Assembly (NCBI GenBank): GCA_027604705.1
Contig: JADHYV010000010.1
Location: forward strand, 124,001-188,000
Length of the DNA: 64,000 nucleotides
Direction of reading: 5' to 3'
From: Allomyces arbusculus
Lineage: Eukaryota > Blastocladiomycota > Blastocladiomycetes > Blastocladiales > Blastocladiaceae
Position 1 is the first letter of the stretch, and each line of letters starts with the position of its first letter. The position numbers and the translations under genes are program-made. Shown piece after piece: positions 1-62,668 of the stretch. The notes beneath the pieces were generated by a model that saw only the letters and a list, made by a program, of their open reading frames with translations, did no database searches and was not told where the DNA came from.

Positions 1-3000
1 GGTCGGAGTGTTGTGCAACGCGTTGACGACCGGCCTCGGCACTGACCGCCAACTGGTCGGGTTCCATTTTGTGCGGTCTGCGCGTCAACCCCCAGCAGCG
101 AGTGTCGCCAACCAGCGAATCAGGCATGAACGCAAGGCGAAATCGATGCTCCTCGATTGCTTAGCCTTCGACCCACAAAGCAGTGTGCACGAGCGCCGGC
201 TTATCCAAAATCGGGTGAAGGTCCCAGTACTGCACCGCTCGCCAGTCGTACTCGCCAAGATTCGGCAGTATCTGACGACGTGGGTCCCTGCCCTGCTCGA
301 CGACGGCGGGCTCCCGTTTTGCAGCACGCCCTCGTCGAGTACTGCCACTGGACCTCCGTTCTCGGCAATTCCGTGCATTTTTACCGATGCCGGTGGTGCA
401 AGCGCCGACGCGGCCGAGCACCGGTCGGTACGATGGGCCACAATGACGGACGACGTGCTGAGCGCCGCTCGCTTTCTCTGCCCGGGACTTGACGGCGAGA
501 TTGCGATCATGCCCGACGCCGACTCAGGCGTGCTCGATTCGACGGCAAGCTTGCTCGTCCCGCTGCCGCCCCCGCTGCTGCCGCCGGTTCTCTCCGACTT
601 GACCACGGTCGACGGCAACGTGTGCATTGCGTTGTTTGTCGCCACGCACATGAATCGGCTCTTGTGTCCGGACCATCCGATCTTCCGCGAGTGCTACACG
701 CTGCCCCTGACCGACGACACAGTTGCTAAGTTGACCAAGGTCTTGATGCACGCTCTGACCACTGGCGCCGGCCTCGGCCGCGTCCTGCGCACGTTCCAGG
801 GTCTGAAGCCGAACACGTCTGATCCGGACAGTACCGTCATAGTCCAAACCCTCTCCAAGCGCGTTTCGGCGCGAAATGCCCTGGTCGATTGCATTGTGGT
901 GCACGAGGCCACACCCATTGACAGGAGTGCTCGCTTGCGTATTTCAAGCGACGATGTGCGTGCCTCGCCCGCAATTGCCGAACAGACTCGACGCTACTTG
1001 ACCGAGTGGCTGCCGGCCTTGCTCGAGTCCGGTGGTCTGCCGTTCTCCGTGCCCGGCAGCAATGCATTTGGAACCATTTTCCCTGTCTTTGACCGCGTCT
1101 CCGACGATGGTGGACAAGTCTCGATCCAGTGGGCGCAGGCGACGGCCGAGCGATCAGACGCTGTCCGGCTGTTGAATTTGAAATATGACGAGGAAACGAA
1201 GCACGCGCAGCTGCCCGTACTGTCGACGCTGTCGACGCCCGAGTTGCCGGCCGTTCTCCAAGACTTGCGCCCGATTGACGGCAATCTCTGCACCGCGCTC
1301 TTCGTGGCCGTGACCTGCGACGCGCGCATGCACCCGGACCGCGCCATCTACCAACAATCCTACCCGCTACCGATGTCCGCCGACGTGGCCGCGACCGTGA
1401 CAGAGGCGCTGCTCGGCACGCTGACCGCTGGCGCCGGAATGAAGCGCACGATTCGTGCGTTCCCGATGCGGCGCACCGGGCAGGATCTGGATTCGCTGCG
1501 CGCGACGGCCGAGATCCCGCAATCCTCCAAGATTGTGCGACTGCTGCTCGCGCAACTCGCACGACCCGCACTTCGTACCTACAAGCTTGCAGAGGTCCCG
1601 AACCCGCACCGCAGCCCCACCGTCGCCGACCATATTCGCCGGTACCTCGTTGAGTGGACCCCAGCACTCATCACCGCGGGCGGCCTCCCGTTCCGTGCCA
1701 AGGCGGGCAAGACCTCCATCGAGTCCTCTATATGCGCTGTCCCTTGCGTCTTTGATACGGCTGTCGACGAGGCGTCGGGTGATCGCGTGCTCAAGTGGGC
1801 CGTCGAGGCGCCGCACAAACTCGCGGCCGCGCGGTACTTGTACCCGGAATTTGACAAGGAGCTGGAAAAGTATGCCGTGGCCGACCTCGACGGCGGCGAC
1901 ACGCCCGACGACGACAAGTTAGGGTTGACGACAGTCAACTGCAACGTGTGCATTGCCCTGTTTGTCGCCGCCGCATTCGACGACCAGGGCCAGAACCCGG
2001 GTGCACGGCCAATAGACTACGACGAGTTCCCGGTTCCACTCGATGCCGCACACGTCGCGTCGCTCGCCGACCGTTTGGTGAAGCTGCTCGGCACGCGCTT
2101 GAACTCCCGAATCACGGCGTTTGCAAAAACCGCGGCCGCTGCGCCCGTGCTCGCTGTCCGTGGCATGCTCCAGAAACGGCGCACGGTGCGCGAGGTCTTG
2201 AACGAGCTCGTCGAACACATGGCCGGATCCGCCGCGGTGAGCAAGGCGCCGCACGCGCACGCGGCCGTGCGCGACCGGATCAAGCAGTACCTGACGTCCT
2301 GGGTCCCGGGTTTGGCCGAGAGAGACGGCGCGACGGGGTTCCCGATCCCGGCCGGTGTCGTGGACGTCGATGCGATCCCGAGCGTGCTCGAGGTGGTATT
2401 CAAGGGCGACGGGCAGCGCGTGATGCGCTGGACCGATTTGGCCGCGCTCGACTGCGCCGTGGTTGCGGCATTTTGCCATGAATTGGCCTCGGGCGACGAC
2501 GACCACGGAGACCACGACGACGTTCATGAGGACGACGCCAGTCCGGCACCGCGCAACGCTGCCAGGACCCCGGCTCAGCACGCTGTCGACGAGCACGCTG
2601 GTTCGACATCGCGCTGCGCCGCCAGGACCCCTGTCCGGCACCCGCCGGCAACCTCGGCCCCGGCCGACGACCGGCTCCTCGCGGCGCCGTGGACGCTTGC
2701 CAATTTCGCGATGCTTGCGTGGTCGGCCATTTCCGACGATTTGCGCAGCGACCCGGACCGCGTGATTTACCGCACGTCGTTCAGCGCGACGACCGACGAA
2801 GACGATGCCGACCATCATGACCTTGTCGTGCACCTCATCCAGTGCTGCACGTCCCCGGCGGCGAAACTCGTCCTGCAGGCGCCACCGCCTAGCGCCGCGC
2901 ACACGGACCTCGTGCCCATGACCGTGCCTGACGCGCAGAACCTCGCGACCAATCCGGCTCACAAACAAGGGCGCTTGAAGCAAGTCGCGCTCGACAAGTT

Positions 3001-5105
3001 GGTTGGCGCATACCTGCGCGCGACTTTTGACGCGGTCCGGTGTGGGCAGGCGTGGACGACGCCTGCGGGCCAGGTCGTGCCGTGTGTGCTCGCGCGGGAC
3101 CCGGACGCGCCCGACGCGAAGATGGTGTGGAATCCACAGCTCACGGCGGTGGAGGCGCCAGTATCGTTTTGGGCGCCGGACGGCGCCGAGCCGAAGGGGC
3201 ACGCGCAGGTCCGGCAGATGGGCAAGGTGATGAAGAGCGCGCGCACGCCGATACCGGCAGCGGCGGTAGGACGGACCACGTCCACGCCGACACCGACCAC
3301 AGTAAGCCGCAACGCGGCTCGCCGTCGCGATTCGGGTCCCATTCGCGGTCCAAACACTCGGCGCGATGCAGTGAGACTATTACCGAACCAAGTGGCCGTG
3401 CCAGTTCGATTGGTGCGAGCGACTCCTTCCGTCTCTGCACGCATCTTTGATCTCGACTGACCTTCATTGACTTTTTTCCGGCACCATTTAGGACGCGCTC
3501 ATGGCCGCCAATATTCCGGAAGTCCCACAAGCCCTCGCCAACCAGTGCCACGTGCAGCTCTGCGCGCTCATCGACCGGCTCACCTCGCACATGCTCGCCA
3601 CACTCCACCTGCCCGCCAACTCTTACAACACGGCCGCGATCCTGGCCGCGTGGGAGACGCACGTCAAGGTCGCCGCCGACATCGAGTCGCTGGTCCTCGT
3701 GCACGACTCGACCATCAACCACCTGGCCCAGTTCCTCGCCGCGTCCCTCGCGTCGCAACTCGCGACCGAGTTCGCCACGCACATCGGCGGCGCGCCTTCC
3801 GCTCGCGACGCCTTGTCCATTTGCCACGAGGTGTACGACGTGCAGCAAAGCGTCAAAGAACTCGCCGGAGATCCCGGAACGGAGCTCGTCTACCTGTCGG
3901 ATCTCTACGATAACACGGCGCCGTGGGCGCAGGCCATGCACGCGGCGCTCGATGCCATGTGGGAAATGTTCCGCACGGTGAACGTGCACCGCGCCCCAGG
4001 AATGGCAGTGGATCTCGTGCGCGACGCGGTGCTCGACATGGTCGTAGTCTGTGCGACGCTTGCGCGGGTCGGAGTGCGCGTCGAGTTTCCGCCAGTGGGG
4101 AGCGCGGTGAATGCCGCGCGGATGGTGACAGTCGGACCGCCGATGTTTACGGTCGCTGCCAGCGACGACGACATGGACGAGGATCGCGTTGAAGACGGTA
4201 TCGCACCGCATCCGCCGCTGTTTGTCGTTGCGGCGGTCGCGCCGTGGCTCATCCGCACCGACGACGGCACACACGTCGTGCCGCACCGCGCCGAGGTCTT
4301 GTGCGGGCAGTCATCACGCACCGACCATGCCCAGCGCCACAGAGCGAGTGCCGCGCCCATGGGCGACTCGGCCGCATGGACCACGCCCGACGTGCCCGCT
4401 GTCGTGCTCGTGGAATGGACTGCGACCATTGGCTCGCGCGCAGCGAGGACCGACTCGCCAACACCGGCGCGGCACCGTTTGACACCCGTCGATCAGGCCA
4501 GCAGCACGCCGACGGCGCGGCTGCCCACGAAACGCGCGGCGAGTGCGCACGAGTGCATGGATTGCGGGTCGATCACGGAGAAGGGGCTCAAGGTGGATGA
4601 GGAGACGGGCCGCGCGCAGTGCCACCGGTGCCGGCAGCAAGAGCGGCGTGCGCAGGAGAAGCACGAGGGCGCCACGGGCCCGGAGGACGTTGAGATGGCT
4701 GAGACCACGACGTCGTCGCCGCTCCCGTCCCCGGTGCCGATGGTGACGTGCGCCACGTGCAGGACGACGTCGTCGATGTGGTGGAAGAGCGCGCCGCACG
4801 GCGGGCTCTTGTGTACCGCGTGCGCGACGGGGCGGAAGACGGCCGCACCAGGCACGGGAGCGGGAGCGGGGCATGGTGCGCGCGCGCGCAACGCCGGACA
4901 TGTACGTGAAGTGGTCGGGTTGGACGAGGATACAAAGTCGGACGGTGGAGAGGATGAAGATGATACCGGGGAGGATCCGGACGGCCCGTGCGGCGAGCTG
5001 CTCGACGGGGGAGAAGAGGACGATGATAGCGACGGCGAGTACGTCGAGTCGAATGCGCGGGCACCAAAGCGGCGGCGCTTGTCCGGCGCGCCGCGGTCGC
5101 GGTAG
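1..5105 (+). CDS. Giant repeat/GATA-finger protein, first tandem copy (5' end outside window)
   Basis: I do not recognise the family. One open frame runs from the window edge to about 3300-3460 and encodes at least four copies of a repeat with two hallmarks: a block like RRYLTEWLPALLESGGLPF (near 260, 988, 1630, 2278) and a block like VDGNVCIALFVA followed by HPDR.IY (near 608, 1273, 1936, 2697). The first residues are the tail of another unit, so the gene starts upstream. A strong acceptor (CTGAC branch, TTTAG at 3487-3491) opens a second exon, 3492-5105, with a helical domain (YLSDLYDNTAPWAQAMHAAL near 3890) and two GATA-type fingers at 4554-4631 (CX2C-X18-CX2C) and 4749-4823 (CX2C-X17-CX2C), then an acidic tail. 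The donor is unresolved; in-phase GTs lie at 3302 and 3371. Joining the halves is inferred from the second copy. The alternative is a separate gene starting at the ATG at 3501. Probably a nuclear DNA-binding protein. Confidence 0.6.
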
Positions 5106-5406
5106 GGAGGGGATAGGCGCGCTCGGCCTGGTGTGGTAGCAGGTGAGGTGGAACGGTTGGCCCGTCCAAAGCTGATAATTTCAAAACACGTTGGGAGCAT
5201 ATTCTACGCTTTCGTGGTGAAGGAAAGACAAGGACACTCCGCGCCAGAGCCGAAGAGCAGGAAAAACAGACGAAACGGAGTGTGACGCGCACGCACGAGG
5301 ATGTGACTCGATCAGACCAGGATCGTCCCTTCGGCCGGCCAGCGGCTCGCGATCAACTCGGCTGTCACCACCACCACGACGCCGACCACAGCACGCCGCG
5401 GCCACC

Positions 5407-8400
5407 ATGGCGTGGGACCCGCCACCTGGCGCAATGCCGCCGCCGCACCACCGCGACCCGTCCCGCAATTCGCTCTCTTCGCGGCGCCCCTCGCCGCCGC
5501 CACCACCGCCCTCGTCTTCGTCACACCGCCGCCGCGACACCCGGTCCCGCTCGCGCAATCGCTCATTCTCGCGGTCTCTGTCCCGGTCAATTTCTTGGTC
5601 TCGCTCACGGTCGCCGCCCGCGGTTGGCGCGAGGAACGCAGCCGCTCGCGCTCGCCCTCCCGCCCTCACTCTCGTACGGTCAACACGAACAGCCCGACGC
5701 CATCGTCGCGGGGCCGCTACGCCGTGGACCGCCTGCCGCGCATTCCACGCCATGGAGATGACCACGACGACCGGTCGGAGCGCAGCCGCACGGACCGAGA
5801 CCGCAAGGACCGGTCGGACCGGCCAGGCAGTGACCGTGACCGTGATCGCGACCGTGACCGTGATCGCGACCGTGACCGCGCAGACCGAAGCCGGGCCGAC
5901 CGCGATCGCAAGGACCATCGCACCGGCCGCACCGACCGCACCGACCGTAAGGACCGCACCGACCGCACCGACCGCAAGGACCGCACTGATCGCGACCGCA
6001 CTAATCGCGACCGCACTGATCGCGACCGCACCGACCGGCCGGATTGGGACCGGGACCGGGACCGCGACTACCGCATTAATTACGAGTACGACCGTGAGCG
6101 TGGTGATTCCCGCATCAAGCGCGAGGACGACCGTGGTGATCGCGACGACCGCGGCGACCGCATCAAACGGGAGCGTGATCGTGACCGTGGCGGTCGTACT
6201 GATCGAGACCGCACCACCGACCGGGACCGCACGGAGAGCCGCCGTCGGCCCGCCGGCGAAAGCGATTCGTGCTACCGCGACCGCCGCCTGGAACCGGAAC
6301 CGACAAATTTTTACGACTACGACCACAACAACGGCGGCAGCAGCTCCCACTCGACACTGCGCTGGTCGGCGCGCTCGAATGCGCGCAGCCGCCCGCATCA
6401 TTCTCCATCGCCACCGCCGCCACCATCACCACCACCACCACTACCGCCACCGCTCGCATCGCGACGGCCAGATCGCACGCCGCGGTCGTCGTCACGGTCG
6501 CCGTTCCCGCCTGCTCGTGATCGCGTGTCGCGCCCGCGCTCGCCTAGGCTGCGGATGGAAACAGCACGTCAGTACCACGATGATGAGGACGACGACGGCA
6601 CGGTCATGTCCAGTTGGTGGTTGTGTCCTATTCAATGTGAGCTGACCCATGAAGTGCACGTAGAGGACGGCCCGCACCCGCCAATTTCGCGGCATGCGGT
6701 CCGTGGTCGCAGGCGCCCACCGCCATTACTCGACCTGGCGACGCGCCACGCATCACCGCCGCCGTCACCTCTGTCTCTCGTACCACCAATGCCCCTTCCT
6801 GTCGCCCCGCCGCCAACGTGGATTGCCCCACCACCAACACGTGGCGCCGCGCCGCCAAAACGGGCCGCCCCGCCGCCAAAACGGGCCGCCCCGCCACCAA
6901 CACGGGCTACCCTGCCGGCTCGTGACCAACCGCCACAACGACGCATCCTGCCTGCTGCCACCCGGCGCCCGCAGTCGCCATCGCAGTCTCCGCCAGCATC
7001 TCCACCGCCGCGGAGTGACCTGTCGCTCAGCGACGTGCCCTTCCTCGACCGCAACATGCTGATTGCCCTGGTCGTGGCCGTCTTTTGTGACCAAGTGACC
7101 CACCCAGAACGCGACATCTACCGGAAATTGTTCACGTTCCCGTTGCGCTCGCGTGACGTGGACGACATCCAAAAGCACATTGAGCGCGTCTTGGGCGCGG
7201 CGCTCAACCGCGACGTGCGTGGGTACAGTGTCAAGCCGCAGAATCCGACAACAGAATCCGACAAGAGACCGCCATACGACGAGTCGCCGCCCAAGTCTGC
7301 GCGCCCGTTGCGCAACCTGCTCGGCGAACTGGTGATCGACGAATCGATCAAGGGCGGCTCGGCGCGGTACAATGCGACCAAGCTCGCGCGCGAGAAGCCG
7401 CACTTGAACGGGATCTTGCGTCAACGGATGCACCAATACTTGACGCGCCGGCCCGACGTGCTCACGCAGCCGCACGGATTCACGTTCCAGCTGCCGCTCA
7501 ACCCGACCGTCGAGTACCTGGCCGACAATATCCCATGCATTTTCATGCGCGACACGAAAATCGACGAGGTTAATCACCGCACGCGCCATGTCCTGCGGTG
7601 GGTTGATTTACGCGCCGACGCCAGTGCAGCCGTGCACTTTCTTTACCCAAACGTTGGCGACGAGCTCCAGAATGTCCCGGCGCCACGGCGACGGCCGGCG
7701 GGCCGCGCGCCGCCCGACCCGGTCGCGTGGCCGACAGATCTCGACGCGGCGATGGATGGGCCCGCGGGCGCCGACGTGAATGACCCGATGGACGTGCTCT
7801 CCAAACTCTCGTCAGTCGACGGCAACATCTGCATCATCCTGTTCGTCGCCGCTTACTGCAACCAGGCGCGGTACTCGGACCGCCCGCTCTACCGCACAAC
7901 CTACGCGTTCCCGCTGTCGGAAGACGACGTGACGGCCTTGACCGAGACCCTCTCGGACCTGATTGCCGCGGGCGTCGGTTTGAGCCGACAGCCGCGGTCG
8001 TTCCGGATCCCGCGGCGCGAGACCTCGTTTTATTCGCAGTTTGCGACCGACACCGCGCCATCGGTCGAGCGGTTCACGCGCACGTCGCTCAGCGACTGCC
8101 GGATCGCCGCGCAGCCGCCAGATACCGAGTACGACGAGGCCAAGCGTGTGCGGCCCACCGCGCAAAGTGACTTGCATCGTGACGAGTTTGTACTGGCCTC
8201 GATTCGCACCTACTTGACCGACTGGCTCCCACACTTGATGGCGTTTGACGGCCTGCCGATCGGGTCCAAAGGGAAACGCAACAAGTGTCCGATCCCGACG
8301 ATCCCGTGCCTGTTTGAGGAAGTGGCTGCCGACGGTACCGCCGCCGGAGACGGGCGGAAACGCGTGCAGTGGGCCAAGCCCAGCGACAAGCGCACCAAGG

Positions 8401-11400
8401 CTGCCGAGTTCCTCTACCCGAAAATCCACGACGAGCTGGCGAGTCTCGATCCGGACTCGGGGGCCGCAGGCGCAGCCAGAGACGACGGCGAGTTTGATAT
8501 CGCGCGCATGACCGCGCGCGAGGGCAACCTGGCGATCGCCGTGTTCACGGCCATCTACGTCGACCGCGTGCAGCATCCGGACCGCAGTATCTACCAGCGA
8601 TCGTTCCCGACGCCGCTCAGCGACGCGCACCTGATAGAGCTTGTCGACCACCTGGCCTTTGTCCTCGGGCTTGGCCGCGGCGTGAACCGGCGCATTATGG
8701 CGTTCCCCGGCGGCAAGGGCAAGGGCACGGTCCCGCTCGTCGCCGAGTTCAATGACCGCGCGTCGTTCCGTAACGTGCGCCGGTGCTTGGTCGAGTTGTA
8801 CGATATGCGGCCCAACCCAAGGCACGGGATCGCGTCGCTCACCCCGCAGCAGCACCCGGTCGTGCAGCGGCTACTCAGAGAGTACTTGACATCCTGGTGC
8901 AGGGCGGCGACCGAGACGCGCGGGTTCCCCTTGCGGAAGCGGTTCTTGTCGACCGATGTGATTCCGACCGTGTTCGCGGTCGACGGGGATGAGGAGGGAG
9001 AAGAGGGCGAGGAAGGGGGTGCCACGGGCGTGCTTCGCTGGGCTGACCTCAACCCGCACTCTGCAGTGCTGTTCTACACGAAGCTCCAGGACGAGCTCGA
9101 GGATGTGAAACCCGCAGTCGGCGAGGACGATGGCGACGAGGAAGCAGATGAGGTGGTGGATGAATTGGACGACGACAACGGCGACAACGACGAGTCCGAA
9201 TCGGACCTCGACGAGGCGCCCACGCCGCCGCGACTGCGCCGGAAATTGCGGTCGGCGCGAACGGTCGGAAGGAAGGATGTCTGTGCAGGCGGGCACGACG
9301 ACGGCGAGTCGGATTTGGACGAGGCGCCGACGCCCGCGCGGGCGAAACGCACGCGGCGCGCTACGGCGACACACGAGGTAGTTGAGCTGCTCGAGCTCGA
9401 CCCAGAGCCGATGCCCGTCCCAGATTATGACCACATGCTCGAGGACGGGATTGAGCCGCCCGCGTTGCCGGTACGTGAGGGCGGGAGCGGGGTTTTTTTT
9501 GGCAGGACTTGGCTCGACGTGTCTGACTGCTGGCTGGAATTGTATAGGATTACCGCGCTGAGGGGGAGTACTGCGGTGACGATCACGACCACCGCGCTGA
9601 ACGCGATCACCGTGCTGAACGAAATCACCGTGCCGACAATCACCGCCGTGACGAGCGCAACCAACGAGCCGAACAGGATCACCGTGCCGAACACGACCAA
9701 CGCGCCGAGGAAACCCGGGCGCGTCAACGCCCGTCAAGGCGCGGTGCTGAGCGGTGCGACTTGTCCGACAACGGGGAGGACATGAGGCGCGCTGAGCCGG
9801 ATGTAAGCATGAAACAGCAACGGTTTCCTGCACTTGATCATTGAACTGACGCCCGTGTTGCAGGAGCTCGACGTGGACGACCGCCGAACCCGTCGCCGTC
9901 GGTCGCGACACCTTTCCGAGTTTGACGAAAAAGTGGAATGTCGAGCCAGCTCGGTACACCAACGCTCATCTTGCATTTTCGTGATCGAGTCACATTCGCC
10001 AACATTCGCGTCGGGCGTCCAACCGTTTTAGGTGCCACGGCTCGTGACCAAGGCCAACATCACCGTCCAAATCACCACTGAGTCTCTGGTGCAGCAGCAC
10101 CAGCATCGCCTCCTCGACCTGGTCCAGCGCCTGGCCGGCCTCTTCGAGACGCACCTGCTCAACCTGCCGGCCAACGGCAAGCGCCGCACCAAGTGGCGCG
10201 CCGCGTGGGAGTTGCACCTCAAGGACTCGATTCGCGCGCAGGGCCACGCCGACGACGCCGACGCGCTGGCCCTGGACCCGAAAACCAACCTCCGCGACCT
10301 CGGGCAGTACTTGACCTCGTTTCTGGCCGCAAATCTCACGTCTGAGTTTTACGCCCGCGCCGGCACGATCACCGACGAGTCGGCCACGGCCATGTGCCAC
10401 GCGGTGCGCGACGTCGCGCAAGTTTTGGCGTCCATGGCCGCGCGCCCGCCGCGTGACGGCGTCATATACCTGTCGGATTTGTACGACAATTCTGCGCCGT
10501 GGGCGCAGGCCATGCACGCGGCGCTCGATGCGACCTGGGACCTGTGCCGCGCGTTCGGCATGCACCGCGCGCCGACGACTACGATCGATTTTGTGCGCGG
10601 CGCCGTGCTGGATGTCGTCGCGAGTCTTGCCATGCTCGCGCGCGCAGGACTGCGCGCCGTGTTCCCGCCCTTGGGCACCGAGTTTGATGCCGCGACTATG
10701 GACTTGCCGCGCGTCGTTGCGGCGGCAGCCGAGGATACTGACGTGGTCCTGCGAGTGCGGCGCGTCGTGTGTGCCCTGGCGCCGTCGATCACGCGCATCG
10801 AGGATGGACACGTGGTGGTGTCGGGAGCGGAACACGCCGAGGTCTGGTGCTGGCGCTCGACGGCGGGCATGGGCGAGGGCGGCGACGAGTGGGCCGCGAA
10901 CGTTGCCGAGTCGGACGGGTGGGGGATTCCCGCGGCGGATATGGATTTGGTCGCCGGATCCGACTGGGAGATGGATGAGGGCCTCATGGCGGTTGGTGAC
11001 GACCACGATGACGCAGGGAACGAGTGGGAGGGCGGCGAGGATGCGCGCATGGACGTGGATGGGGAAGACTTGGATGCGCGCGGCGCACCAATTCCGTTGT
11101 CGTCGGGGTCAGGGTCGAAAGGTAAGACGGCGGGGTGGAAGAGCTGGGTGTGATTGGGTGAGAGCCGAATGAGACTGACTTCAATGTGGCGCGATGTAGA
11201 ACTCACGCCGCGTCGGGTACGCCGGGGTGCACACGACTATGACGACGACGAAAGGGAGGGAACTGAGGAGGAAAAGGAGCGCGAACGCACCGCCCCTGTA
11301 CGTGTTGAACCCTGGCTGTTCCTCGAAGAATTGCGACGGCGGCTGACCTTTTCCCGTACACTCTGTTAGGACACCCCATCACGCCGCCGCTACCGGTCTC

Positions 11401-13250
11401 TCTCGAGCTCCAGCAGCGTTTCCCACCCTGGGTCCGACTCCGACTCGGCCTCGGACTTTGAAGTCTCGCGCAAGCAGTCACGTGTCCGGTCGCGCGGTAC
11501 GTCGTCATCGGCGCCGCACGCGCGCAGTGACAGCGGTACGAGCAGTCGCGACGCGGTCAAGCGATGCAATTTTTGCAGCTCGACCACGGCCAAGCCCTGG
11601 CGCAACACGAAGAAATGGGGGCTTTTGTGCAACGCATGCCGACAGCGTAAATGGCGTCAGGACCATCGCGCCAAGCAATTACGCGAGAGCAGCAGCGGCA
11701 CCACCATCCGGGCCCGGTCGGACGCGCGCGTGCGGCGCACCGAGCACGATCCCAACGGCAGCGACGGCGACGAGCCATACAAGTCGTGCACGCGGTGCCA
11801 CGCGACCACGACCAGCCGGTGGTACAACACGGCGCAGTGGGGGCTCCTCTGCCAGGCGTGCCGGTCGAAGATCGACCGCGAGTCCGGGAAGCGGCCGCCG
11901 CGCGCGCAGTCGTCTCGCCGGGCTAGCGACAGTGACGACGACTATTCCGCATGGCAGCCGCCCGCGGCCAAGCGGCGCCGTGTGCAGGCGCGGCCGCCGC
12001 CACCGTCGCATCCGGCGTCGGCCGACGGCGACCATGTGTGCGCACAGTGTGGGACCACGGAAGCGTCGCAGTGGCGAGATGACCGGCCGTATGCCAACTT
12101 GAACGCACGCCAAATTTGCAAGATGTGCTGGCACAAGCGACAGAGGCGGCAGAAGGAGGAGCGCGACGAGGAAACCGAGTCAGAGGCGGGCGCCGAGTCG
12201 GCATCGGCCAGCGAGGCGGCACCGCCCGCGCCCACGCGGCCTCGCGTGCGTGGTAATGGGTCCTGCCCGCCGCCACCGAAACGGTCGTGGCCGGACCGCG
12301 AGTGTGCCGAGTGTGGCGTCTCGAACTCGCGCGAGTGGCATCGCGACGGGGCGAGGCGACAGGTGTGCAACGAGTGCTGGCTGCAGCTGTGCGAGGCGCG
12401 GAACGATGCACTGCCGCCGCCGTCGTCGTCGCCGCCCGTGCTGCCGCAGCGGCAGGAACGGTGGCAGGAAGAGCGGCATCGGTCCCCGTCGTCGCCGTTG
12501 AGCGATGCGCCCGATTCCCCACCGCCGGCTGCCGCACGCCGTGCGACACGCTCGCCGCCGCCACCGCCGCCAGCGCCGCCAAGGCTCAAGGGCGGCCATT
12601 GCATGGTGTGCAACACGACAGGAACCAAGTCGTGGCAACGCGACCCGTCAAACCGACTCGTTTGCGAGAGATGCTGGAGGCGGCTACAGCAGCAACCGCA
12701 GCAGCCGCAGGACGCGCCATCAGCAAGCCCTGCTCCGGCTCGCGCGGCCGCAGCCCGATCGCGGACACCGTCGGCGCCCGACATGTCCCGTCTCACGCCA
12801 GCAACGCTGGCATCGCTGGCATCGCCGCCGCTGGCCATCAAGGCGACGCCAGCCACGCCGCGCAGGGAGACCGAGAAGCGGTGTGTCGAGTGCAACACGA
12901 CCGTGTCGTCGGGGTGGAGGCGCAACAGCAATGGCCAGCGCTTGTGCAATGCGTGCGGGCACCGCTTGCAGCGCCGGCTCCAAAACCAGGAACGTCTCGC
13001 GAGTGTGGTCCCGGCTCTGACACCGTTGCGAGCGCGGGGCCCGCCAGTCGAGCCGCCAAGCGCCGTTGATCCCGCAATCCCACCGGCCGCGGCCACCGCC
13101 GTGCCCGACGCGGCATTGGTCGCGCAACTGTTTGGCGGCGACAAGGACGAGCCGAGGAACACCGATGCCGATACGAACAAGGTCCCGCTCCTGTCTACGC
13201 CGCTCTCAAGCGTGCCGTCGCCCCCTGAACCGTCGACGATCGGTGGATGA
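5407..13250 (+). CDS. Giant repeat/GATA-finger protein, second tandem copy
   Basis: Seven exons fit in phase: 5407-5573, 5642-9470, 9548-9802, 9864-9953, 10032-11121, 11200-11297 and 11370-13250, giving about 2469 residues. The start ATG at 5407 has a gccaccATGG context. Order: RS-rich N-terminus; RD-dipeptide tract (residues about 98-255); proline-rich linker; three repeat units like those of the upstream gene (GN..I..F.A blocks near 7045, 7817, 8519); acidic segment; a DHRAE-repeat exon; the helical domain with YLSDLYDNSAPWAQAMHAAL (near 10470); and six GATA-type fingers. The helical-domain exon has no ATG near its start and opens directly after a TTTTAG acceptor, which is the main reason to join it to the upstream exons. 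The first intron is least certain (donor 5574 or 5586). The role is inferred: nuclear, chromatin- or RNA-associated. No family match is known to me. Confidence 0.65.
5778..6245 (+). repeat. Arg-Asp dipeptide coding tract
   Basis: Imperfect short repeats of GACCGN/GATCGC codons encode alternating D-R, D-R-T and D-R-K units inside the second giant gene. RD/RS tracts of this type are typical of nuclear RNA-processing proteins such as U1-70K. The tract is absent from the visible part of the first copy, whose N-terminus lies outside the window. Confidence 0.8.
9548..9802 (+). repeat. Exon of DHRAE-type charged repeats
   Basis: This exon lies between a TATAG acceptor (CTGAC branch 20-25 nt upstream) and a GTAAGC donor. 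In the spliced frame it encodes successive units of the form DHRAER, NHRAD and DQRAE. Read without splicing the same DNA gives a Thr/Ile/Val-rich sequence that looks unlike the rest of the protein, so the splice frame is the better reading. Confidence 0.65.
11565..12956 (+). other. Array of six GATA-type zinc fingers
   Basis: Fingers lie at 11565-11639, 11787-11861, 12039-12128, 12303-12377, 12600-12674 and 12882-12956. Five have the canonical CX2C-X17-CX2C spacing; the third has X22 between the cysteine pairs. Typical GATA features are present: a TT or S after the first pair, W in the loop, and LCNAC- or VCNEC-type second pairs. Linkers are Pro/Ser/Arg-rich. Known fungal GATA factors usually have one or two fingers. 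Confidence 0.85.
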
Positions 13251-14621: not shown

Positions 14622-16279
14622 TCACTGCATCCACGAGTACGCGCGCTGCCGCGGGACCGTCGTGGTCGAGTACTGCTGCGACTGCGACTGCGACTGCGTC
14701 GTCATCGGCATCCAGTGCGCGTTCTCGTGCGCCGCCGCGTTGGCCGACGCCGGATACGTGTTGAGCAGCGCCTCGAACGCGACATAATCGAGCTGGAACT
14801 CGGGCGCGGGCGCGGCGGGCGGCGGTGCCGGTGCGACGAGCGGTGCGGGAGCGTGCCACGCGTGATCGAGCGGCGACGTCGGCGTCATGGGCAGAACCGT
14901 CGGGAGGCCGAGCGGTGCGGCCGGCGGGACCGGCAGCGGAATGCGGCTCGCGGCCACAGGCGCCGACGCGCGGCGTGCGAGCAGTGGCGCGAGGGCCGGG
15001 AGCGTTGGCGTCGGCACGGGCGTGGGCGGCGCGGTGGTCGCGGCCGGACGCAGCTCGACGAGTGCCGGGGTCGCGGCCTTGGGCGACGCCGACGCGGTCG
15101 ACTTGACGCGCGGCAGCGCGACCTTGGTGATGGCAGCCGACTCGAGATCGCCTGACGCACCCGAAGCCTTGGCCTTGGCCGCCTTCTTCTTGAGCTTGAT
15201 GCGGTGGTACTGCCGCTGGTTCTGGAGCGCGGAGAGCAAGTACACGGTCAGCAAAAGCACTGCGAAAGAGAAACCGACCTGAGTCGCGCAAAAAACGCGA
15301 TACTTACCTGGAACCAAATCTGCACCGTGCGCACCGGGATGCCGAGCTCGCCCGCGAGCTGCTCCTTGGTCGCGCGGTCCGGGAAGTAGGTGACGGCGTA
15401 GACGCGCTTCAAAATCGCCGTTTGCTCGCGAGTGAGCCGCGACCGCGGCTTCTCGCTCGTCGCTACCGCTGCCGCTGATGCTGTAGCGGCCGTCGACGTC
15501 GTATCGTCGTCAGACGTCGCGGCCAAATGACGCGTCGCGTTCGACGACGCGGGCGAGGGACGCGGCGAGGGCAATGGCGACGGCGGGGCGGCAGGCACAT
15601 GCTCCTTCTTGACGACGACAGGCGCCACCTTGTTGGCGGGCGCTGCTGCGGCCGCGGTCGCTTGCTCGGGCTTGACGTACTGGTCGGCAAACGGCATGAA
15701 CGGGTGGTGCAGGACCAACGGCGCGTTACTCGGCGGCGCCATGAACGGCAGTCGCGCGGCGGCATCGAGCGCGTCGGTTGCGGTCGCAGAGCGGCCCGTC
15801 GGCGCCGTCTCGGCAAAGGGCGTGGGCAAAAACGAGGTCATCCACGACGCGGCGGCCACGTCGGCCGTCGTCGGCGCCGCCAGCAGCGTCGACGGGGTGG
15901 TCGTCGTGGTCGTCGTGATCGTCGTGGTGACGGACGGGCGAGGTGCCGGCACGGCGGGGCCGTGCGCGTGCACGTGAGCGTGAGCGGCGGCAGCAGCGTG
16001 ACCATTCGGGACCGACCAGCAGTCCATCATGGCCGTACTTGCCGCTACTCCTGCTGCTGCGGGCGCGGATGCCGGCACCATCGACCCAAAGGGACCCTCC
16101 GGACCCGCCGGGTGTGGCAGGGAAGAGCAAGAAGAAGGAAACAAGGGCGGCAGGGCAAGATCAAATGAGGAAGATGGGGTGAGCGGCATTGCGTTGAGGT
16201 TGGCGTCGGTGAGCGACGCGTCAAAGAGGTCGAGTGGGCAGAGCGGCAGCGCCATGGCGGGCGGCAGCAGGGCGTCCAT
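14622..16279 (-). CDS. Homeodomain transcription factor
   Basis: Two exons on the minus strand, 16279-15308 and 15221-14622, with an 86-nt intron (GTAAGT donor, CAG acceptor, CTGAC branch), give about 523 residues. The ATG at 16279 lies in a ttgccATGG context. The homeodomain starts near residue 275 (KPRSRLTREQTAILKRVY) and ends in recognition helix VQIWFQ/NQRQYHRI, the intron falling between Q50 and N51. W48, F49, N51 and R53 are kept; position 52 is Q instead of the usual R. There is no three-residue TALE insertion. The N-terminal half is rich in Ser/Thr/Ala/Pro with a His-Ala tract; the C-terminus is Pro/Ala-rich and ends with Ser-Gln repeats. It is a sequence-specific DNA-binding nuclear regulator; targets cannot be told from sequence. 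Confidence 0.9.
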
Positions 16280-18150
16280 GGCAAGCGATGCGAGAGCGCG
16301 CGGTGAAGACGTGCAGCGCAAGGCAGGATTGAAAGACGGAGAGGAGATGAACGCAAACTGGGTCCTCGGCGAGCAGTGGCGGAGCGCGTACAGAGGCACT
16401 TCAAGCAGGCGAGCCAGCACCTGTGAAGCGTCAGACGGCCGGCGCACACGACAAGGAAAGGCCCGAGTGGCACAAGGAGGAGCGGAAAGGGGAGCGCAAG
16501 GTCGACCGCGAAGGCAGGCCAGAGCAAGAGCGAGCGAGAGGAACACAAAGGAGGAGACAGGGGCGGGGGATGGAAGAGCGTCAAAATGGAGAGAATGCCA
16601 CACGATCCGACGAGTCCGGTCCGGGTGCACGACGACGACACCAACGATGAGCCCAATCAAGCTGCGGGGCCCGCGCAAGAGCAAGGATGCAATGAAATCG
16701 GTTGAGGGGAGAGAGAGCAAGACCACGGCCGCGGGGGTGCGGCGGGTATAAGTATCGTCGTGGGGCGGGGGGCGGCCGGTCGCACGCCAGCAAAGTCTTT
16801 GACCGGGCCGTGCGTGCCATCGTTTGACGAAGCGGTGTTTGGTGGCGGCGCAAGACGGGCCCATGCAGCGCCCGCCGCCGCGCGAGTGGAAAACCGAGCC
16901 TGGCGACAACAGTGCAGGCACGGTGGCGTCGATGTCGACGTTGGCTGTCCGTGCGCGTGTCTCGCGCATCGTCCGAGACGTGCGCGCGCGTTTTGGCGCC
17001 GTTTCAAAAAGTAACAACAATTTACGACGCAGGGCCTTGCGTTCTCTTGCATTCGAGCGGCAGCGGCGCACGGTTGGTTCTTTTTTGGAATTTTCACTGC
17101 ATTTACCATCGAAAAACAATTCGGCCGGAAATGTGCAGCGTGGCGGGGCGGGCGGACCAGCAAACGCCATCTTTTCATCGCAGGCTTGTCCAGGCTGGTG
17201 GCGCGCACGACGCGTCCCATCGCGCCCGCGCCGAACACCTCAAGTCAAGAATGCCTCCAACGTGGTTGCGACTGCAACCGTTCTGGTTCCTCACGCCCGG
17301 TTGCAACCAAATCGCGAATGGGGACGACGGAGGACGACGAGATATGAATGATCGAGCCGCCCCGAAGACCGACCGATGCTCAACTGGGAGCGTGCTGTTG
17401 CGTCGCAGCCGCGACCAGCGTGCCAGCGCCGGGCGGCGGCGGTATTATTATTTTTGGGGCAGCCGCCGTCCACAGCGAGCAGCAGCATGCGGGCGCGTTG
17501 GATTGCCGCAAGTTGCAGCTTTGGTGGGTCGCGTCAGCACGGCATCGTGATATGCGACCGCTGCCGCGATCGTGATAAAAAAATTCACAGAAAGGGGGCG
17601 CTGTGTCAGGCGCACCCGTGCAGAAATTCGACGGGATGGGCAATAACAAAACAGAATTCATTGGGCCGTATTCAGCCGGAGCCGCTCCTGCAGCCGTCGA
17701 ACCATACGCGCCCCGTCGCCCGTGTCGCACCGAGTGCCGCGGCAGCCAAAGTGATGGTGGATGTGTGACCGCTGGTTTCTGTGTGGGGAAGGGTGCAGTG
17801 GTGGCGGTTGGACAGCGGACGCGTTGTGATCAGGACGGTGATCAGTGATCACCCTCTGCACTGAATCCGGGCAACCCATTTGGCATTTCGCAACCGCAGA
17901 CAAGTAACACTCCTCTACGGAATAAGGCGCCCAATGAGATTGGCATAGGACAATGTATTCAAAACGTCAAAGGAAGCAAGCAAGCCCAAGACTGCTGCCA
18001 CGTTCGTGCCAACACGGTGCCGATTCACGGCAGGTCACCCCGCCCTCCTCTCTGCACCGACCCAAAACCAACAAAAACGCGATATGTACATGCTTTTCGC
18101 CCATCCCTCTCCCTTCCCTCCTCGGCGCCCAGGAGCGCCCCCACATACCC
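16280..18150. other. Intergenic: upstream of homeobox gene, downstream of cyclin gene
   Basis: About 1.9 kb without a recognised gene. Open frames in 16.3-17.2 kb on both strands are Arg/Ser-rich and have no conserved motif; they look like GC-bias shadows. The part next to 16279 should contain the homeobox promoter; I see no canonical TATAAA on the minus strand. Confidence 0.5.
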
Positions 18151-42536: not shown

Positions 42537-43026
42537 CGTGCAGGCTGGGTCACGCGTGTCTCGTGGTGGTGCTGGGCGGTGGGGTTGGTGGGGTAGCTGG
42601 ATCGCGCCTGGTGCAGTCGTCGTCCTTGTCGTCGTCCTTGTCGACGTCGTCGCCGTCGTCGTCGTCAAGCGGGCGGCTGAAGGCACTTGATCGACGTGCG
42701 CTCGCTCGTGTCAGTCTTCGACAAGCGTGCCGACGACGATGACGATGGAGTCACTGGCGAACCGGCGTGACAAGCACGCGCCTTCACGTGTCATGCGCGA
42801 GACGGCGGGAGACGCGTTCGCGGCGTTCCCAGTGCTCCTTTTCCGTTCGCAAGCGTCGCGCGGCGGCTGACGCCCCGTGCAAACCGAGGAAAGCTCCACA
42901 CTCCGTGCACGACCACCGTGTCTGGAAGAGCTCACTGGCCCTCAGCCGCAGCATCGCGACTGTGCGGCAGACCTGCTGCTGCTGGTCGCTGCCGAGCTCT
43001 CTAGAGCCAAGCCAACTGCCACGAGA
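42537..43026. other. Divergent intergenic region, HOP2 / DUF707
   Basis: 490 nt that should contain both promoters. A GTC-rich simple repeat lies near 42610-42670. No TATAAA is seen. Confidence 0.5.
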
Positions 43027-44610
43027 ATGACCAATACTTCTCCGACCACTCTTTTCGCGCGCACCAAGGGCGCGCTCTCGATTGCCGTCGACGCTCGCGG
43101 CACCTCCATGTCGCTGCCACTCACGTCCACGAGATCGGGATGGACCGCCATGCCGCCGTGGTCGCGTATCCGCTTGCGGCGGCGGACCGTGGTCCGCTTG
43201 GCCCTCGCTGTGCTCGTCCTGATCACGATGGTTGCCGTATCACGACTGGCCGCGCCGTGGTCGGGCTCTGACGACGGTCTCTCGGTCGCTAACGACATGC
43301 GCGAGTCACTCCCATTGAGAAGGCCGGTGAAACGGAGGCGTGCAAGCCGTGCTAAACGCGCAGATCCGACTCGCCGACGTGTCGCCCCAGGACCCGGCGC
43401 GATTCCGTGGGAGGACGTCGACACGGGCCAGCTCGTCGCAGCGGCCTTGGCTCAAGTCAGCGAGGAAATCACGACCGAGGCCGAAACGCGGCGCCCACAA
43501 CTGTCTCCAGCGGTGCCAGCAGCCACGGCACACGCCAGGGCGCCGGGCCTGCTCGCCATTCCCGTAGGATCCAAGTCTCGCGCCAATTTCGCACCGCTGC
43601 TCGCGCAATTCCGCCGCGACGCGTTCGACTGCATTGTGTTTCACTATGAACCCGCCGACACCGACGACACAGCGCAGTGGGCCGCCGACGTGCCGCACTA
43701 CACCGACTGCGTCTCTGTGCGCGTGCCGGGCCAGACCAAGTTCTGGTTCGCGAAACGGTTCCTAACGCCCGACACGCTCGGCACCGCCTACGACTACTTG
43801 TTCCTGTGGGATGATGATGCGGCGCTCCCCACTCCCGACTGGTCGGCGCTCTCCATGGTGCACGTCCTGCAGCGGTACCACATCCACGTCGCGCAACCGG
43901 CGTTGCTCTCGGGCGTGCCCAACAAGCCACAGGCGCACCTCGTCAAGTGGCACGCCCCCACCGGCGACCCCGTCCCATCCCCTGCGCGGTTCACCAACTT
44001 TGTCGAAGTCATGTTTCCAATCTACTCGACTGCGGCCTGGCGCACGTGCGCGTGGTCAGCGCTGCCCTACGACGGCCGCTCCTACTGGGGCACCGACAAC
44101 GCCATGTACCCGCTGTGTGTTTCGCGCGGGTACTGCCGGTTCGCGGTCGTCGACGTCCTGCCGGTTCATCACCGCGACGCGCGCCGGCTCGCACAGGATA
44201 CGGGCACCAATATCCGCGAAATGTTCGAGTACTTGAACCGCGTCTGGCGCGCCGTGTGCCATGCGCCCAAGGACGCGCCTCCGGAAGTCGCGCAGATCTG
44301 TGCGTATTTCACTCGCCGTGGGCCGGGTTCCGGGCCGCTCGCGTTCCGGACCGTGCGGGACGTGGTGCCCGTGCTCGACTCGGTGTCGCTGGCGTGCCCG
44401 GACGCGGCGTATTGGCCGGAAAAGGCGAGTAAGCCGTGGTGGGGGACCGGCCGTGGGCCAGCGAGGGTTGGGGGCGAGGGAGTTGCGCGCGTCAAAGTGG
44501 TAAAGGTGGAGAATGAGGAGATTCAGAATGCGGCGGGACTGGATGGGGAAGAGGACTTGCGTTCGCGGGTGGACGGGCGGCGTGGGGACACGCACAAGGG
44601 GACGACTTGA
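43027..44610 (+). CDS. DUF707-type glycosyltransferase-like type II membrane protein, intronless copy
   Basis: A single exon of 527 residues. A basic N-terminus is followed by a signal anchor (VRLALAVLVLITMVAVSRLA, about residues 56-76), then a Pro/Arg-rich stem and a lumenal domain with the DUF707 landmarks: LLAIPVGSKSR, FDCIVFHYEPAD, VPGQTKFWFAKRFLTP, YDYLFLWDDDAALPT, HIHVAQPALLSG, FTNFVEVMFPIYSTAAW, and YWGTDNAMYPLC. The family (PF05212) resembles GT-A glycosyltransferases; the DDD after FLW would be the metal-binding DXD-like motif. It is likely Golgi-located. The C-terminal 50 residues are charged and not conserved in the second copy. The paralogue at 54.8 kb has an intron after FVE, absent here. 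Confidence 0.82.
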   Translation: MTNTSPTTLFARTKGALSIAVDARGTSMSLPLTSTRSGWTAMPPWSRIRLRRRTVVRLALAVLVLITMVAVSRLAAPWSGSDDGLSVANDMRESLPLRRPVKRRRASRAKRADPTRRRVAPGPGAIPWEDVDTGQLVAAALAQVSEEITTEAETRRPQLSPAVPAATAHARAPGLLAIPVGSKSRANFAPLLAQFRRDAFDCIVFHYEPADTDDTAQWAADVPHYTDCVSVRVPGQTKFWFAKRFLTPDTLGTAYDYLFLWDDDAALPTPDWSALSMVHVLQRYHIHVAQPALLSGVPNKPQAHLVKWHAPTGDPVPSPARFTNFVEVMFPIYSTAAWRTCAWSALPYDGRSYWGTDNAMYPLCVSRGYCRFAVVDVLPVHHRDARRLAQDTGTNIREMFEYLNRVWRAVCHAPKDAPPEVAQICAYFTRRGPGSGPLAFRTVRDVVPVLDSVSLACPDAAYWPEKASKPWWGTGRGPARVGGEGVARVKVVKVENEEIQNAAGLDGEEDLRSRVDGRRGDTHKGTT

Positions 44611-54827: not shown

Positions 54828-56718
54828 ATGACCCTCTCATCCGCATCGCCGTCCAGTTCCGCGAGCGCCATGCCGCTGCGCGACCGCCAAGTCCACTCTT
54901 CCGTCTTTTACGCGCCGCCCAAGCACGGTCGTGCCGTCGCGAGCATCAAGGATGCCCTGGGGCGACCGACCGTGCGCGTTCTCGTGCGCCACCGCCGCGC
55001 TCTCGCGCTGACCCTGCTCGCGCTCGTCCTGATCGCGTCGGTCATGATGCGGTCGTCGCCAGAGGACCACGGCAAGGCCACTGTCGTTGACGAAGCCGTC
55101 GTGTCGAGGCTTGCAGCTCAAGGAATTGGCCCGAATTCGGGCCGTACTCCCGCGGCGGTGCGTGAAGAGCTGCGGTCGATCCAAGAGGCGACGCGGCACC
55201 GCGTCGCTGGCGTGATTCCGGGGAGTAGACTTGCAGCATCAGGCAAGTTTGGCGCCGCTGCAGTGGCCGATCGCGAGCGAGTTCATAAGCCCGTGGTCGC
55301 GGCTGACGACGGCGTGACGTCAAACAAGAAGGCCGCACGCGCTGGCGCCAGAGATCATGCTCATGCAGGCCACATGGAGGCAATAGTTCACGAACCGGAC
55401 GACGACCATACGGTTGCTCGCGCCCAGCCCCACGGTTCGCCCGTCAAGGCGCCCGCCGTTCCTGAACCTCGCGTTGCCGCTCCCGTGGCCAAGCCCCAGT
55501 CTAAGCGCCCGCGCCCGCGCCGCGCTTCACGGCGTACCAAGCCCGCTGCGCATACGGCTTCGTCGAACACGGCCGAGGACCGCGACACGATCCCGCTCCT
55601 CGCGGCACTCGCGCACGAAAACGGCAACCTGCGCATGCTCGAGGACGGTGCCGCAGTACCTCGCACGCCGCCCGTCCTGCGGCACAGCGGCCTTCTCGCG
55701 ATCCCCGTCGGGTCCAAGTCGCGGGAGGCCGTGTCCCCGCTCCTCGACCTGTTTCGTAAAGAAGGGTTCCACTGTATCCTGTTCCACTACGAGCGCGCTG
55801 ACGTCGACGATACGGCTGTATGGGACGCTGAAGTGCCGCGGTACCGCGATTGTGTCGCCGTGCGTGTGCCCGGGCAGACCAAGTTCTGGTTCGCTAAGCG
55901 GTACTTGACGCCCGCGGCCGTGGCCGCCTACGACTACTTGTTCCTGTGGGACGATGACCTCGCCGTACCGAATGCCGACTGGTCGCCGACCCAGTTCCTC
56001 ACGATCCTGCGCCGGCACCACATTCACGTCGCGCAGCCGGCACTCGCGTCGGGTTTGCGCGATAACCCGCAGCATGATGTGGTCCGGTTCCACGATGACT
56101 TGGTTGCGCGGCGTCCGGGCCGGTTCACCAACTTTGTCGAGGTGCATTTCGGCTTCAGACACAATCTCGCACGGTGCCCTTCCGCTCACATCACCTACTC
56201 CATTCCAGGTCATGTTCCCCGTCTTCTCGCGCGCCGCCTGGTCGAACTGCATCTGGTCGACGATTCCCTACGACGGCCACTCGTTCTGGGGCACCGATAA
56301 CGTGTGGTACCCGCTCTGCGCGAGCGCCGGCTTCTGCCGGTTCGCCGTAATTGACGCGATGCCCGTGCACCACATGGACGCGCGCCGGCTCGTGCAGGAC
56401 GTCTCGGCCAACATTCGCGAGCTGCAAAACTATATCGCGCACGTGCACCAGCTGTGCACGCCCGCGGCCCTCCGTGCGGCTGACGCGCAGGCGCGGACCG
56501 TGTTTCAGGCCATGTGCGCCTACATTTCATCGTTTGAACTCGGGCTCTCGTTTACGAGCTTCCGCACGATTGCCTACCCGCACGACACGCCCGCACAGCA
56601 TTGCCCGGAGTTGCCGGCGTGGAAGGGGGTCAAGAATGCGCCGTGGTGGGGGCACGGCGAGGAGCCGCCATTTGTCGATCCGCAGACGGCGCTCGGCGTG
56701 CGGGATGAGGCGGAGTGA
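54828..56718 (+). CDS. DUF707-type glycosyltransferase-like type II membrane protein, intron-containing copy
   Basis: Two exons, 54828-56141 and 56209-56718, give 607 residues. A signal anchor (ALALTLLALVLIASVMM, about residues 60-76) follows a basic N-terminus; a long charged stem (residues 80-270) precedes the lumenal domain: LLAIPVGSKSREAV, FHCILFHYERADVDD, VPGQTKFWFAKRYLTP, YDYLFLWDDDLAVPN, HIHVAQPALASG, FTNFVE/VMFPVFSRAAW across the intron, and FWGTDNVWYPLC. It is clearly a paralogue of the gene at 43.0 kb, with the lumenal domain highly similar and the stem and C-terminus divergent. The 67-nt intron lies between FVE and VMF. Probably a Golgi enzyme of unknown acceptor. Confidence 0.85.
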
Positions 56719-61800: not shown

Positions 61801-62668
61801 GCAGGTCAAGAAAAAGCGCGCCGAGCAGGTCGTCTTGAAACTCGCCAAAGAGTTGCGTCGTGCGCGCGGGGTCAGCATCTCGCAGCTCGTCGACGAGGAA
61901 GTGGACATGAAGGCGCGCGAGGTCAAGGACATGACCAACTTTGTCTTGTTCAAGGCCGACGAGGTACTCGACCGGCTCCCACCCGAGTCGGTGTCGGTCG
62001 TGCGCGACCGCCTCCAGCACGTTCTCGACGAGCTCGGCATTCAGCCGCCGTCGCGGCCCATGACTCGCATGTCGAATGTCTCGTCGATGAGCGGACCGGG
62101 TGCTGCTACCGCATCTCGTGGGCCGTCGCGGCTCCATGCCGCAAGCCGCGGACCGCATGTGCCGGGGCTCGCGCCCGTTCCTCCGTCGCCGACATCCGGC
62201 GGGATGGTCGCGGCGGCTGCGGGGACGATGCCCAAGCACCAGGCGGCGACGTTGTCGCTTTCGCTGGACCCTGGTGCCTCCAACAACGTGCCGATGGCAA
62301 GCCCTGGGTTCCGTCGCGCGTCGCCATTGCATTCGCATTCGCATTCGCACACGAGCCATGCACGCTCACCGGCCGCATCCCCATCGGGTGGCCCTTCGCC
62401 GAAAACGAGCCGGTCGGGCACGCCGCTCGTGTTCCGCGATACAATTGCCGGGTCTCGTGCAGGCAGTCGCGGCGCAAGCCCTGCACCGACAAAGAAAGAG
62501 GGCTCAGGAACACCGCCATTGCCACTGTTGCCTCGAGCGAATCCGAGTGGTCGCGTCACGGCCGACCAGGGTCTCGATGGGCGGGCGTCGTCAGTTGGGT
62601 CGCGCGGCCGGCCATCGCGGCCCGTGTCGGCAGCAAGCACAGCATCTCGGCGGTCTTTGAGGAACTGA
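58887..62668 (+). CDS. CCDC39: CCDC39, axonemal 96-nm ruler coiled-coil protein
   Basis: Eight exons, 58887-58958, 59030-59149, 59228-59359, 59453-59866, 59955-60079, 60158-60237, 60309-60551 and 60627-62668, give 1075 residues (human 941). Matches from memory: N-terminus EEYGALPPFANESNKKL (human WEDGFAIPVANEENKLL), RNREIETEEHLKAVADREVG (RERETESEEHFKAIAQRELG), ERTREIELHKSMLKAQLR (ERTEEIKVHKTMLASQIR), EEEERSQAYYIIRAAQERE ([20 protein letters not shown]). The protein is coiled coil up to about residue 870, then a Ser/Pro/Arg-rich tail as in animals but longer. CCDC39 pairs with CCDC40 along doublet microtubules and sets the 96-nm repeat for inner dynein arms and the nexin-dynein regulatory complex. 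All seven introns keep phase. It proves a motile flagellum in the life cycle. Confidence 0.95.

Follow-up and report, generated by a model that had tools for sequence, protein, structure and literature searches.

A tandem gene array with an iterated orphan unit and GATA-type or GATA-like finger patterns in Allomyces arbusculus

The window analyzed here is a 64,000-nucleotide (nt) stretch of Allomyces arbusculus DNA, corresponding to positions 124001–188000 of contig JADHYV010000010.1 (C10) in a 25.9 Mb assembly of 197 contigs (GCA_027604705.1). It contains the end of a tandem gene array that occupies C10:91.2–137.2 kb and starts ~33 kb upstream of the window. By our division the array consists of five genes, A to E, of which the window carries the last two, D (cut by the window start) and E (whole). 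Their common element is an unfamiliar repeat unit, present in 1, 9, 9, 6, and 3 ordinary copies in genes A to E, respectively (28 in total), along with four divergent terminal units, T. We read the two window genes and 60 kb upstream, and examined 80 kb of open frames. A preliminary description of the window had proposed a tandem duplication of two genes with four and three repeat copies; the duplication and the seven copies agree with the block positions given in Table 1, but the array extends to five genes. We regard the anatomy of the array as a whole as highly secure.

To define the unit, we cut six copies by hand, made two half profiles from them, DGN.CIALF...PDR.IY...PLPLS and YL..W.PAL...IPC.F...W, and iterated both over the 80 kb of open frames. 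At an expectation value (E) of 0.01 or less, the DGN half gave 32 matches and the YL..W half 28; four of the DGN matches were the T units, leaving the 28 ordinary ones. The distance from a DGN block to the next YL..W block was 30–68 residues in all 28 units, whereas that from a YL..W block to the next DGN block ranged from 23 to 801 residues (23 distances, measured within the same open frame). Because the first gap is narrow and the second wide, the folded unit consists of the DGN block followed by the YL..W block, and the stretches between units are linkers. Both blocks had been recognized previously, but in the reverse register and therefore with misplaced boundaries. As cut, the units are 173–210 residues long, and 24 of them are 24–39% identical to the first unit of the alignment used for library searches. 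The unit profile found 33 domain matches in 917 real open frames, with none in the reversed frames and none in 20 shuffles of each. The net charge lies between −5 and +5 in every unit. Sixteen linkers were measured, 15 between units and one following E3; 14 carry a net negative charge, and the other two have net charges of zero and +2. The share of disorder-promoting residues is 0.58–0.76 in linkers versus 0.55 in units. A profile built from the four T copies (genes A, B, C, and D) matched ordinary units elsewhere only weakly, and a search of the array frames with it found no T unit in gene E.

In two genome searches, the unit was confined to this locus. Searched alone against the whole genome at E ≤ 0.01, and thus independently of the unit profile, D5 gave 28 matches, all inside the cluster (27 besides itself), and a second single-unit query placed 27 of 27 matches there; these counts are lower bounds. 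An orphan, repetitive sequence restricted to one locus could be a domesticated mobile element or a virus-derived locus. We consider this origin highly improbable, since the matches sit in one cluster and are not dispersed, D5 showed no relative among phages, plasmids, or viral contigs, and its predicted fold had no viral match.

Library searches used an alignment of 25 of the 28 units (A1, B7, and C5 were left out). The preliminary description had called the repeat unfamiliar and had named a significant profile hit to a known family as evidence to the contrary; profile and consensus searches of Pfam and the other libraries returned no such hit that was consistent among units. In Pfam, open frames P0001 and P0003 had no match to the unit, the 25 units had single-member matches (best E 0.0081), and the consensus reached 0.034. 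NCBIfam likewise gave single-member matches (best E 5.2e-5), PHROGs gave none, and the best values against PDB sequences were 0.14 and 1.1. The top Pfam and NCBIfam entries, TTI1 TPR and PRK08199, each matched one of the 25 units and were taken as chance. Neither the 25 units nor the consensus matched the BEN domain in Pfam, which had been considered on a passing impression. D5 had no relative in viral contigs or prokaryote genomes in a search with six short peptide patterns, which reaches close relatives only, and none in plasmids or phages. The helical domain described below had no consistent match in Pfam or PDB sequences and no relative in viral contigs, and T had no consistent match in Pfam. 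As far as these libraries go, the unit, T, and the helical domain are orphans. Orphan domains are not uncommon in little-studied fungi, and unnamed relatives may exist in fungal proteomes, the collections searched being Pfam, NCBIfam, PHROGs, PDB, and phage, plasmid, viral, and prokaryote sets. The portions consulted of two articles on GATA proteins in early fungi (PMC10406608, PMC11878562) gave no account of this architecture.

The fold of the unit was predicted with AlphaFold2 from seven window rows (six ordinary units and T), with D5 as the query. The best model had a predicted local distance difference test (pLDDT) of 79.1 and a predicted template modeling score (pTM) of 0.81. The model is compact in the DGN-first register given above and describes a putative alpha/beta fold, in which a long first helix over DGN.CIALF is followed by a helix-strand stretch, the YL..W helix, four strands, and two helices. 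The preliminary description had proposed a comparison with known folds. In Foldseek, none of 99 PDB matches (best E 1.8) and none of 169 matches to the viral models of BFVD (best E 0.56) reached E ≤ 0.001, and template modeling (TM) scores did not exceed 0.26 among the best 50 of each. The unit could nevertheless belong, as a highly diverged member, to a known fold family that profiles and Foldseek missed because the alignment had seven rows. The yield of a single good model among five, obtained from seven sequences, and the capacity of Foldseek to overlook distant folds are in keeping with this possibility, while the low TM-scores, the absence of significant structural matches, and the failure of any Pfam family to match more than one of the 25 units argue against it; we rate it as fairly unlikely.

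Downstream of the units lies a second domain, carrying the signature YLSDLYDN.APWAQAMHAALDA.W, that is probably helical according to low-confidence predicted secondary structure. As described earlier, it occurs once in each window gene. A genome search with the E copy gave four matches in the cluster (genes B, C, D, and E) and did not find the domain in gene A, so that the proposal of one domain per gene copy holds for four of the five genes. In a control, the helical profile matched one of 917 reversed frames, an antisense frame over its own locus, which we took as a mirror artefact. The sole match outside the cluster was a lone fragment resembling the domain core at C82:20733–20852 (E 1.8e-4) with a stop inside; it is probably the remnant of an old copy, or else a chance match.

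The third component is a series of four-cysteine fingers. In total, 22 finger patterns were found in the array: seven in gene A (five in the unit-bearing frame and two in a separate one following it), three in B, four in C, two in D, and six in E. Relative to the curated Pfam GATA (PF00320) cut-off of 26.8 bits, the fingers of E (76.9 bits) and of A (66.4 bits over five stretches, 1089 of the 1352 codons of the frame being scanned) score well above. The fingers reported earlier for the window are therefore borne out in E, while gene D has two weak patterns. The spacing C-x2-C-x17-20-C-x2-C is present in the A and D patterns, five of the six in E, and the first of B and of C. The third finger of E has a 22-residue loop, and the further B and C patterns have 14-residue loops or a C-x-C start, all outside this spacing. 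The fingers of B, C, and D are degenerate. Over the whole array, the only Pfam families above cut-off were GATA and DUF7573, and the best DUF7573 stretches overlap the fingers of A and E. Gene A's T unit is followed by a separate 365-codon frame (C10:94798–95892) with two GATA-like fingers (23.7 bits, under cut-off); this frame may be either a 3' exon of gene A or a gene of its own.

Several of these modules share an open frame. In gene A, one unit, five finger patterns, and T lie in a single frame of 1352 codons (C10:90732–94787). In gene B, a frame of 1684 codons (C10:104131–109182) joins units B8 and B9, T, the helical domain, and finger patterns, including a GATA-like finger. The helical domain and finger patterns also share a frame in C (850 codons) and D (537 codons), and the 1777-codon frame of gene D, with six ordinary units and T, holds the most units of any open frame. 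The earlier statement that units and fingers belong to the same gene is thus confirmed in the open frames of A and B (the B finger being sub-threshold), whereas in the window genes predicted introns lie between them. In gene D the repeat frame ends 34 nt ahead of the helical frame, and a phase-0 GT-AG intron at 3371–3491 or 3302–3491 would join both. The candidate acceptor of gene E, at 10031, is also in phase 0 and lies within eight codons ahead of the shared ANI residues, as in gene D. We infer that the several open frames of each gene would be spliced to encode one protein.

By the Nei-Gojobori method, the ratio of nonsynonymous to synonymous substitution rates (dN/dS) was 0.22–0.58 in nine of nine position-matched B/C unit pairs and 0.58 and 0.76 in two more distant pairs. 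For the helical domain, dN was below dS in six of six pairs; the D and E copies are 43% identical. The dS values, 0.46–1.08, are close to saturation in some pairs. These ratios indicate constraint on the encoded protein. In a maximum-likelihood tree of the 28 units, those of B and C pair by position in eight of nine cases (seven pairs starred, B5/C5 at 94/85, B4/C4 not resolved); D6 clusters with units 4–9 of B and C (100/98), and D1 forms a long branch. A nine-unit gene was probably duplicated whole, yielding B and C, after its units had multiplied. The B/C pairs are 43–79% identical, and the two genes are therefore not one copy assembled twice.

An alternative is that the repeats expanded passively or are decaying and have no function, or that the blocks come from unrelated neighboring genes. 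Features compatible with decay are the variable linkers, the degenerate fingers of B, C, and D, the single ordinary unit of gene A and the failure to find a helical domain there, the stop-containing fragment on C82, and the tentative splice junctions of C and E. On the other side, all 11 unit pairs and all six helical pairs tested have dN/dS below 1, nine unit-bearing open frames span 685–1894 codons, and genes A and B have composite frames; we find such an explanation very improbable.

We propose that each gene encodes a large modular protein in which globular, near-neutral units are strung on flexible, mostly acidic linkers, followed by T (four of five genes), the probably helical domain (four of five), and GATA-type or GATA-like patterns (all five). 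The proteins would probably be nuclear, as suggested by the fingers and by the basic N-terminus of gene B, read by eye, and they may be lineage-specific; both properties had been proposed in the preliminary description. GATA fingers recognize the motif (A/T)GATA(A/G), and the presence of fingers over the cut-off in A and E suggests that these would tether the protein to DNA; the degenerate fingers of B, C, and D may serve another role. Near-neutral units on mostly acidic linkers point to docking with other proteins or to self-association, and away from DNA binding driven by charge, such that the unit string could act as a multivalent platform and the whole as a scaffold-type regulator of chromatin or transcription. 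We hold this full mechanism tentatively, as having somewhat less than an even chance of being correct. The wider proposition that a fold unlike solved structures, in up to nine copies per gene, is the working part of lineage-specific giant nuclear proteins in zoosporic fungi, which would form modular scaffolds tethered to DNA and rely on a principle of recognition that known repeat arrays do not share, is in our estimation unlikely.

Several results weigh against the scaffold proposal. The Pfam GATA scores of B (17.5 bits) and D (18.2 bits) are under the cut-off, as is that of one B finger in the genome search (25.1 bits), and gene C has no Pfam GATA match at E ≤ 0.1; since their fingers fail the cut-off, three of the five genes (B, C, and D) may not bind DNA. 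The best intron candidate of gene E, at 561 nt, has no branch-point match, and a scan limited to 400 nt found no intron. Gene C showed no candidate intron between two frames at the threshold used, and its next junction has weak candidates only. Nine units in one protein would thus be expected for B and C only insofar as predicted introns serve as the splice junctions. The other four unit models had pLDDT values of 63.8 to 40.5, leaving one of five good, and the helical-domain model, from two sequences, reached 37. Finally, a near-neutral net charge is compatible with DNA binding through one face, and in 23 of the 28 units the middle segment has a net basic charge.

This last observation is relevant to a different reading, in which the unit itself binds DNA or RNA sequence-specifically, the protein would read nucleic acid through its whole series of units, and GATA-type fingers would add contacts where they are intact. 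Iteration with strong divergence would suit modules that read different sites, in line with the low identities given above. The near neutrality of all 28 whole units and the lack of a consistent match to any known nucleic-acid-binding family speak against this reading, and we consider a reader array quite unlikely.

The scaffold proposal can be set beside two known systems. The array resembles fungal and other GATA-type proteins (PF00320) in its four-cysteine fingers, some with a CNAC knuckle and, in A and E, over the Pfam cut-off; it differs in the degenerate fingers of B, C, and D and in the N-terminal orphan-domain arrays, T, and the helical domain. To our knowledge, none of these three elements is found in described GATA factors. 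KRAB-ZNF clusters are similarly tandem gene arrays with members differing in the number of an iterated module, but the module here is not a zinc finger, and we offer the comparison as an analogy without a claim of membership. If real at the protein level, the array would extend the protein repertoire of an early-branching fungal lineage by a family of iterated domains, another orphan helical domain, and a GATA-finger architecture of an unusual kind. Its five paralogues, with 1, 9, 9, 6, and 3 ordinary units, provide a natural series on the effect of unit number, and the small size of the unit suits it to structure determination.

Table 1. Features of the array within the window (window positions; profile E-values are not independent, as the iterated profiles include the same copies).
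Feature	Position	Strand	Basis
Gene D repeat exon	1..3370	+	Open frame begins at C10:122127, ~1.87 kb upstream of window; 1777 codons, C10:122127–127457; third-position guanine-cytosine content 0.74
Unit D3, YL..W half only	239..499	+	YL..W block from 239; profile match 7.8e-24; DGN half begins ~130 nt upstream of window
Unit D4 (DGN and YL..W blocks)	602..1195	+	Blocks from 602 and 965; profile matches 1.9e-23, 2.2e-23; 1.9e-27 to D5 alone
Unit D5, used for fold prediction	1271..1861	+	Blocks from 1271 and 1613; profile matches 9.5e-26, 2.0e-25
Unit D6	1928..2488	+	Blocks from 1928 and 2258; profile matches 6.8e-21, 3.6e-23; 5.7e-11 to D5 alone
Divergent terminal unit T of gene D (WTLANFAMLAWSAI ... 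VSFWAPDG)	2681..3184	+	Divergent DGN.CIALF block from 2690; T profile 2.1e-80
Predicted intron of gene D, repeat exon to helical exon (GTGAGA...TTTAG, phase 0)	3371..3491	+	Splice-consensus scan only; 3302–3491 scores equally
Helical domain of gene D, ~245 residues	3501..4241	+	4.0e-42 with E copy alone; same open frame as finger patterns downstream
GATA-like C..C...C..C pattern 1 of gene D, degenerate	4554..4631	+	Pattern only, outside any Pfam GATA stretch
GATA-like finger 2 of gene D	4749..4823	+	Pfam GATA 18.2 bits, under 26.8 cut-off
Possible RS/RD-rich N-terminal part of gene E	5407..6400	+	Overlapping low-complexity frames read by eye; start codon and frame uncertain
Unit E1	7044..7664	+	Blocks from 7044 and 7413; profile matches 4.5e-22, 9.2e-21; 2.1e-12 to D5 alone
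Unit E2	7815..8435	+	Blocks from 7815 and 8187; profile matches 7.2e-24, 1.9e-24; 1.5e-25 to D5 alone
Unit E3	8514..9095	+	Blocks from 8514 and 8853; profile matches 1.4e-25, 3.3e-17; 6.4e-19 to D5 alone
Candidate intron of gene E (GTACGT...TTTTAG, 561 nt, phase 0)	9471..10031	+	Splice-consensus scan, without branch-point match
Helical domain of gene E	10047..10787	+	As genome query, matches C, B, and D copies at 5.6e-46, 1.7e-42, and 4.0e-42
Six GATA-type zinc fingers of gene E	11565..12956	+	Starts 11565, 11787, 12039, 12303, 12600, 12882; Pfam GATA 8.7e-22, 76.9 bits
Stop codon of last open frame of gene E, end of array	13248..13250	+	Sequence

Ahead of the gene E units, window positions 5407–6642 are of low complexity, with two overlapping frames that read RS-rich and RD-rich. 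A homeodomain gene (15251–17239, minus strand; Pfam 4.8e-11) adjoins the array end on the opposite strand. Farther along the window are two open frames with DUF707 matches (42871–44607, 2.5e-32; 55909–56715, 8.2e-7), perhaps two members of one family, and a match to the ciliary protein CCDC39 (60293–62665, 1.4e-77), which suggests motile cilia.

Elsewhere in the genome, opsin exons are followed within 1.6 kb on the same strand by guanylate cyclase exons at C7:515350–516887 and C15:369892–371433, forming candidate rhodopsin-guanylyl cyclase fusions. In the parts of the literature consulted, such a fusion is reported in Blastocladiomycota (PMC4046227), and rhodopsin-guanylyl cyclase proteins are reported in chytrids too. 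The two loci probably fit a blastocladiomycete fungus, and one of the cyclase exons is ~82% identical to its best PDB chain, 6sir (64 of 78 residues, counted by eye).

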